44,283 bases of DNA from an uncultured Granulosicoccaceae bacterium (GTDB lineage: Bacteria > Pseudomonadota > Gammaproteobacteria > CALCKW01), in contig CALAMQ010000041.1 of NCBI GenBank assembly GCA_937925815.1, forward strand, positions 1 through 44,283, given 5' to 3'. Positions within the stretch are counted from its first letter, which is position 1; the number at the start of each line of letters is the position of its first letter. The notes under the pieces are model-generated. The model was not told the origin of the DNA and ran no database searches. It was given only the letters and a program-made list of their open reading frames with translations. This document shows positions 7,288 to 7,945 of the stretch, in pieces. Position numbers and translations under genes: made by a program.

Positions 7288-7363
7288 GGGGCCATAGCTC
7301 AGTTGGGAGAGCGCTACAATGGCATTGTAGAGGTCGGCGGTTCGATCCCGCCTGGCTCCACCA
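7288..7363 (+). tRNA. tRNA-Ala(GGC)
   Basis: A 76-base cloverleaf can be drawn by hand. The acceptor GGGGCCA pairs with TGGCTCC, including the G3-U70 wobble that identifies tRNA-Ala. The D stem is GCTC/GAGC, the anticodon stem CTACA/TGTAG with loop ATGGCAT (anticodon GGC at 7321-7323), and the T arm GGCGG-TTCGATC-CCGCC. The CCA end is encoded. Its 3' portion is copied in the array that follows. Confidence 0.97.
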
Positions 7364-7468
7364 AATCTCCCTATCTATTTGTGTCAGTGTTCTTTTGAGC
7401 ACCGCACCGCCGACCTCGTGAGGTCGTCCCCGGAAGGCCGGCCCGCTCGATCCCGCCTGGCTCCACCA
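7364..7468 (+). repeat. tRNA-Ala repeat unit 1
   Basis: 105 bases. Hairpin 1 is GTGTTC (7387-7392) with GAGCAC (7397-7402). Hairpin 2 is GACCT (7412-7416) with AGGTC (7421-7425), loop CGTG. Hairpin 3 is CCGG (7430-7433) with CCGG (7438-7441), loop AAGG. It ends in CTCGATCCCGCC then TGGCTCCACCA, differing from the tRNA at one T-loop base. Confidence 0.88.
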
Positions 7469-7572
7469 AATCTCCCTATCTATTGGTGTCAGTGTTCTTT
7501 CGAGCACCGCACCGCCGATCCCGTGAGGTCGTCCCCGTTGCACGGCGCGTTCGATCACGCCTGGCTCCACCA
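7469..7572 (+). repeat. tRNA-Ala repeat unit 2
   Basis: 104 bases. Hairpin 1 is GTGTTC (7492-7497) with GAGCAC (7502-7507). Hairpin 2 is weakened (GATCC with AGGTC, 7517-7530). Hairpin 3 is CCGT (7535-7538) with ACGG (7542-7545), so its fourth pair is T-A where unit 1 has G-C. The tRNA-like end reads TTCGATCACGCC then TGGCTCCACCA. Confidence 0.88.
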
Positions 7573-7676
7573 AACTTCCCTATCTTTCGGTTTCAGTGTT
7601 CTTTAGGACATTGTGCCGCCGACCTCACGAGGTCGTCCCCGTTGCACGGCGCGTCCGATCCCGCCTGGCTCCACCA
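7573..7676 (+). repeat. tRNA-Ala repeat unit 3
   Basis: 104 bases. Hairpin 1 is GTGTTC (7596-7601) with GGACAT (7606-7611). Hairpin 2 is GACCT (7621-7625) with AGGTC (7630-7634), loop CACG. Hairpin 3 is CCGT (7639-7642) with ACGG (7646-7649). The end reads TCCGATCCCGCC then TGGCTCCACCA. Confidence 0.88.
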
Positions 7677-7780
7677 ATCATTCCTATTTCTAGAATAAGG
7701 TGTTCTATCGGACACCGCGCCGCCGACCTCAACAGGTCGTCGCCCGGGTGCCGGACCATCGATCACGCCTGGCTCCACCA
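7677..7780 (+). repeat. tRNA-Ala repeat unit 4
   Basis: 104 bases. Hairpin 1 is extended to seven pairs, GGTGTTC (7699-7705) with GGACACC (7710-7716). Hairpin 2 is GACCT (7725-7729) with AGGTC (7734-7738), loop CAAC. Hairpin 3 is CCGG (7744-7747) with CCGG (7751-7754), loop GTG. The end reads ATCGATCACGCC then TGGCTCCACCA. Confidence 0.87.
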
Positions 7781-7898
7781 ATCCTTTCTATCTTTCGCGT
7801 CCAGTGTTTTTCTTAACACTGCACCGCCGGCCTCAAGAGGTCGAATCCGTTACACAGTGCACCGTGTACGGGACCGTCGATTTCGTCTGGCTTTACCA
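7781..7898 (+). repeat. tRNA-Ala repeat unit 5 (diverged, lengthened)
   Basis: 118 bases. Hairpin 1 is CAGTGTT (7802-7808) with AACACTG (7815-7821). Hairpin 2 is GGCCT (7829-7833) with AGGTC (7838-7842). Hairpin 3 is lengthened to eight pairs with one bulge: CCGT, ACAC (7847-7855) with GTGT, ACGG (7864-7871), which explains most of the extra length. The tRNA-like end has decayed to TCTGGCTTTACCA but keeps CCA. Confidence 0.8.
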
Positions 7899-7945
7899 GT
7901 TTTCCGATCTCTAGAAGAAGGTGTGCTTTCCGGCACCGTGACATA
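7899..7945 (+). repeat. Partial sixth repeat unit
   Basis: The pyrimidine-rich opening (TTCCGATCTCTAGAAGAAGG, close to unit 4) and a weak hairpin 1 (GGTG ... CACC) can be recognised. Similarity then fades and no tRNA-like end follows. Confidence 0.6.

Follow-up and report, generated by a model that had tools for sequence, protein, structure and literature searches.

A tandem array of tRNA-tail repeats behind tRNA-Ala(GGC), a putative variant of RtT-type trailers, in an uncultured Granulosicoccaceae bacterium

The tRNA-Ala(GGC) locus and its repeat units

We analysed a 44,283-nt stretch of DNA (hereafter the window) from an uncultured Granulosicoccaceae bacterium (assembly GCA_937925815.1, contig CALAMQ010000041.1). 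It carries a tRNA-Ala(GGC) gene with a promoter-like site directly upstream and gltX, flgN, flgM and flgA as neighbours, flgN being convergent (Table 1). Five repeat units and a degenerate sixth abut the tRNA gene without a gap. Tandem Repeats Finder (TRF) on the window placed the array at 7340–7843, with a period of 104, 4.8 copies, 79% matches and a score of 518; the unit borders in Table 1 were set by manual division, and homology to the units is recognisable up to near position 7950. ARAGORN, TRF and the unit alignment thus bear out the first-pass annotation, which had described five units and a partial sixth directly behind this tRNA at the same coordinates. No integrase or mobile element lies at the locus, and none lies between the copies of the tRNA tail. 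A second short tandem repeat (period 30, 2.1 copies) occurs elsewhere in the window, at 39423–39486.

Table 1 Features of the tRNA-Ala(GGC) locus (window coordinates) and RtT-type trailers at other tRNA genes of the same genome
Feature	Position	Strand	Remarks
Sigma-70-like promoter, TTGACA–18 nt–TACATT	7246..7275	+	10/12 consensus positions; consensus match only
tRNA-Ala(GGC) gene with encoded CCA	7288..7363	+	ARAGORN; RF00005, 63.3 bits
tRNA variable-loop/T-arm segment GAGGTCGGCGGTTCG, carried inverted by units	7330..7344	+	inverted repeats
Unit 1, 105 nt	7364..7468	+	tail copy 7447-7468, equal to the last 22 bases of the tRNA; covariance-model match
Hairpin 1 of unit 1, GTGTTC-TTTT-GAGCAC	7385..7404	+	base pairing no better than in shuffled controls
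Hairpin 2 of unit 1: inverted T-arm copy CCGCCGACCTC, then direct GAGGTCG	7407..7426	+	
Unit 2, 104 nt	7469..7572	+	tail copy 7551-7572, 1 mismatch
Unit 3, 104 nt	7573..7676	+	tail copy 7655-7676, 1 mismatch
Unit 4, 104 nt	7677..7780	+	body 60-65% identical to other units; tail copy 7759-7780, 1 mismatch
Unit 5, 118 nt, longer insert	7781..7898	+	tail copy 7877-7898, 5 mismatches
Degenerate unit 6	7899..7950	+	leader and hairpin 1 only; without tail copy
tRNA-Arg trailer	L165, contig 5 (C5)		tandem, period 205
tRNA-Arg trailer	L166 and L184, contig 132 (C132)		RF00391 E = 0.03, below cut-off
tRNA-Ser trailer	L173, contig 174 (C174)		
tRNA-Ser trailer	L177, contig 53 (C53)		

Two other readings of the array were rejected. 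It is not protein-coding, as its period is not a multiple of three and the open reading frames across it have no Pfam match. Nor is it an array of pseudo-tRNAs or tRNA pseudogenes, the true tRNA being the only sequence that scores as a tRNA.

Each complete unit consists of a body of ~82 bases, made of hairpins, and a copy of the tRNA 3′ tail. The sequence CCTGGCTCCACCA is identical across units 1–4, in agreement with the earlier observation of an element unchanged in four units, and is altered in unit 5. Among units 1–4 the tails are 91–100% alike and the bodies 60–87% alike, and the contrast between tail and body is significant for the pair of units 2 and 4 (Fisher p = 7e-5). Fifteen successive 3′ columns are invariant in units 1–4; a run of this length, picked for testing after being seen, was reached by 5e-5 of column shuffles. 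Units 1 and 2 share 96% identity over 91 bases. With up to three mismatches allowed, only ~0.0001 tail copies per tRNA are expected within 1200 bases, so chance is ruled out as their source.

The units also carry an inverted copy of the variable-loop/T-arm segment of the tRNA, an addition to the first reading. Within a unit, hairpin 2 (the inverted arm followed by GAGGTCG) is succeeded by a short insert and then by the tRNA tail. The inverted copy reads CCGCCGACCTC in units 1, 3 and 4 and is changed in units 2 and 5; its counterpart in the tRNA is GAGGTCGGCGG. The inverted match spans 15 columns in units 1 and 4 (shuffle p 0 to 0.03 over units 1–5), and the arms of units 1, 3 and 4, tested against a tRNA panel, fitted tRNA-Ala only. 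Equivalents of hairpin 1 are present in units 2–6 and those of hairpin 2 in units 2–5. Covariation in the two hairpins does not rise above shuffles, and neither does an acceptor/T minihelix at the unit 3′ ends (z −0.1 to +0.7). The suggestion that the units yield CCA-ended decoys is therefore unsupported; nor does any unit score as a tRNA.

Occurrence in the genome, the genus and the class

The genome holds a single tRNA-Ala array. Across 369 gammaproteobacterial genomes, this one and 368 others, no second array was recovered by a covariance model of the unit or by a pattern search for three GGCTCCACCA ends spaced 80–110 bases apart. Family and order searches for relatives yielded four genomes, all of one genus. 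Conservation in sister species, which the first-pass annotation had raised, was not found: of the three congeneric genomes, G001 and G003 contain the locus but no array, and G002 (79% complete) gave no match.

The two congeneric loci differ from each other. In G001, the gene order is gltX, tRNA-Ala, flgN, flgM, flgA, as in our genome, and the tRNA is followed by one homologous trailer with both hairpins (hairpin 1 made of other bases, hairpin 2 with CGCCGACCTC at the matching place), without a tail copy and with no element nearby. In G003, an intrinsic terminator lies directly behind tRNA-Ala, followed by a tyrosine integrase with Arm-DNA-bind_3, Phage_int_M and Phage_integrase domains (L086 1107–2462). 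Its place directly behind the same tRNA makes it probable that elements integrate at tRNA-Ala(GGC) in this genus. At window positions 7748–7761, 14 bases of unit 4 (GTGCCGGACCATCG) are found inverted at the equivalent place in the G001 trailer, which suggests a hairpin inversion.

Outside the window, the unit covariance model produced two matches in the 369-genome search. One, antisense to a tRNA-Glu (L097), was taken as chance. The second adjoins tRNA-Phe in G048, and a search with the 20-mer of hairpin 1 found its sole exact match at this same locus, the remaining matches having two mismatches and lying away from tRNAs. There (L096 1412–1640), tRNA-Phe has a tail copy 183 bases downstream; upstream of it lie a 5′ tRNA fragment and a hairpin pair with CAGTGTTCTTTTGAACACCG, one base off that of unit 1.

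Elsewhere in this genome, RtT-type trailers follow four tRNA genes, two for tRNA-Arg and two for tRNA-Ser, each with an inverted T-arm and CCCGNAGGGYGA-type motifs. No match to the family model RF00391 exceeds the cut-off in this genome; the four trailers lie under the Rfam threshold and are therefore missed by the model. Like the Ala array, they contain an inverted T-arm, a direct T-arm half, an insert and the start of the tRNA tail, and those at one tRNA-Arg gene are likewise arranged in tandem. They differ in their RtT-like core motifs, which the Ala array lacks.

Across the class, RF00391 has matches in 65 of the 369 genomes, 23 of which have matches over the cut-off. Among the best 30 loci, 23 have a tail copy 117–203 bases behind tRNA-Tyr, -Gln or -Ser, and the model also matches the lysV units tested. 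RtT units share a common plan: an inverted T-arm copy, a direct T-arm half, an insert and the tRNA tail. Of the 26 comparator units, most have an inverted arm with a better fit to the unit's own tRNA than to other tRNAs. Scanning 335 tRNAs in the fetched loci for tail copies placed them behind tRNA-Lys in many Enterobacterales, and also behind some tRNA-Val, tRNA-Glu and tRNA-Phe genes.

Three of the loci were inspected by eye. The tandem units behind tRNA-Lys in Photorhabdus akhurstii (L015 2558–3193) look like nearly whole tRNA-Lys copies with the T-loop interrupted by an RtT-like insert. Repeats of tRNA-Glu in Aliidiomarina maris (L046 6618–6740) and of tRNA-Val in Motilimonas cestriensis (L073) resemble copies of the tRNA whose anticodon loop holds an insert; in the former, an inverted anticodon-arm copy precedes it.

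A possible transcribed trailer and the alternatives

We give roughly even odds (probability about 0.5) to the reading of the array as an amplified RtT-type tRNA trailer that is transcribed, ends transcription by way of Rho and is cut into small RNAs. The starting point would be an older single trailer behind tRNA-Ala(GGC), in which an inverted T-arm copy, a partial direct copy, a short insert and the tRNA 3′ tail came together; the assembled unit would then have been amplified in tandem in this species. Transcription would start at the tRNA promoter and run on into the array, which would form the 3′ portion of the precursor. Rich in C and poor in G, the repeats may serve as a zone of Rho-dependent termination and trailer decay ahead of the convergent flgN, and cuts beside the tRNA tails could release small RNAs of ~100 bases, as for rtT RNA. 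Both the transcription of the array and any function are inferred.

The proposed Rho step draws on base composition and on the tyrT repeats of E. coli, which terminate transcription Rho-dependently. Over 535 bases of the array, the excess of C over G ranks at the 99.9th percentile among 535-base stretches of the window, both strands counted, as expected for a Rho-loading region, and no convincing intrinsic terminator was found on the + strand in or just behind the array (a weak candidate lies near 8050). In favour of an RtT-type trailer, the tails are kept while the bodies diverge. By analogy, Northern signals of RtT family RNAs, with RtT at several tRNA operons, have already been reported in Actinobacillus pleuropneumoniae (PMC4986893). 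Against it stand the RF00391 miss, the lack of a closing stem, covariation at shuffle level and the lack of a congeneric array.

The main rival is neutral: a trailer with a chance tail copy was duplicated in tandem by slippage or unequal crossing-over and is decaying distally, without function. We regard this as a possible though not a probable account. It would suit an array confined to one species, with a degenerate distal unit and tail decay graded 0, 1, 1, 1, 5 (mismatches to the last 22 bases of the tRNA, units 1 to 5). Hairpin covariation no higher than in shuffles, a period that is not a multiple of three and open reading frames without a protein family match fit it as well. Neutral decay is harder to reconcile with tails that stay 91–100% alike in units 1–4 while the body of unit 4 is only 60–65% like the others, and with units of like design at four other tRNA genes here and in many genera. 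A single accident is unlikely because the RtT-type pattern recurs too often.

A smaller rival, which we consider improbable, takes the tail copies as attR-like tRNA 3′ fragments that integrases targeting tRNA-Ala(GGC) left behind and that were later amplified in tandem. The integrase just behind the same tRNA in congeneric G003 speaks for such a scar, as does the start of the tail copies at the T-loop, where crossover is known to occur. Displaced tRNA fragments are, moreover, common marks of islands (PMC4383910, PMC9897764). However, the array locus holds no integrase or element, and the ~82-base hairpin bodies have their homologue in the G001 trailer, which is likewise free of elements. Unit bodies found no match of note in phage and plasmid records, and in viral contigs carrying the exact tail the unit model matches merely tRNA-like sequence. 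The inverted T-arm copies are also left unexplained by integration, and comparison with the G001 trailer points to an inverted T-arm that was in place before any tail copy.

A switch in tRNA-Ala maturation, in which the inverted arm CCGCCGACCTC would invade the upstream T-arm and the tail copies would compete for it, is highly improbable: the 15-base inverted match is 93% complementary and the free fold of the tRNA with unit 1 is predicted to break the cloverleaf by 10.8 kcal/mol, yet this preference falls to 1.0 kcal/mol with part of the trailer and 2.7 kcal/mol with the whole array and is thus almost gone, the tRNA and trailer of G001 fold with the cloverleaf retained, and co-transcriptional folding would favour the tRNA.

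If the array is an RtT-type trailer, its value lies in what it keeps and what it drops. The Ala variant retains the tRNA-derived parts and lacks the RtT core, and so sets the copies of the local T-arm and tail, which matter, apart from elements that may be dispensable. Together with the four RtT-like loci in the same genome, it offers a direct way to test the role of such trailers. Well outside E. coli, units of the RtT type follow tRNA-Tyr, -Gln, -Ser and -Lys genes and bear arms that fit the tRNA they belong to, and one may ask how this correspondence is maintained. A tentative extension, which we think unlikely as things stand, is that RtT-type trailers form a general gammaproteobacterial system whose units are repeatedly remade out of the T-arm and tail of whichever tRNA precedes them and act as tRNA-specific RNAs. 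Were that so, the coreless Ala array would show that conservation and function reside in the copying of the local tRNA and not in the core.

Comparison with known systems

Stable RNA is also cut from the 3′ trailers of other tRNA precursors. The 3′ external transcribed spacers of glyW-cysT-leuZ act as small-RNA sponges and resemble the proposed Ala product in this respect, but they are neither repeated nor built from tRNA. A different likeness is found in the displaced tRNA fragments at genomic islands of the Islander type (PMC4383910). These share with the Ala array a direct repeat of the tRNA 3′ end, whereas the Ala array has no element between the copies, short homologous bodies and inverted arms.

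The closest counterpart is RtT RNA, known since 1991 and without a clear function. In E. coli K-12 tyrT/tyrV, 178-base units end in AATCCTTCCCCCACCACCA and their bodies carry the complementary GGGGAAGGAT. The first-pass annotation was right to compare the array with tyrT/rtT, and the likeness is closer than it had claimed, both systems combining an inverted copy of their own T-arm with the tail. The E. coli RtT (tyrT-tyrV/rttR/tpr) and the Ala array share tandem units and a tRNA 3′ tail with CCA, and the Ala units, placed directly behind a tRNA gene and ending in its 3′ tail, likewise have the inverted local T-arm before the tail, shifted towards the variable loop. rtT has also been linked to BIME repeats (PMC2965389).

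The differences concern the core and the closing stem. E. coli RtT has 178-base units with a CCCGNAGGGYGA core and a tail that pairs with the inverted arm over 10 bp, whereas the Ala units, of 104 bases, have an inverted arm that corresponds to the variable loop and the 5′ strand of the T-stem. The CCCGNAGGGYGA core hairpin is absent from the Ala unit alignment, and RF00391 has no match in 7288–8000 up to E = 10. No closing stem joins the inverted arm to the tail, the longest complementary run being 5–7 in the Ala array against 10–11 in the RtT units where it is clearest; low values also occur in several other lysV units.

As the plan is common but the core and closing stem are missing, we class the Ala array as an RtT variant that falls outside RF00391. 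The proposal of an independently built system is borne out only in part: RtT-type units are widespread in the class and present at four other tRNA genes here, which makes the array a variant inside a standing system, although its insert is unrelated to the RtT core. The array is real and unusual. It belongs with a known, poorly understood class whose breadth and regularity exceed what the first reading had assumed.
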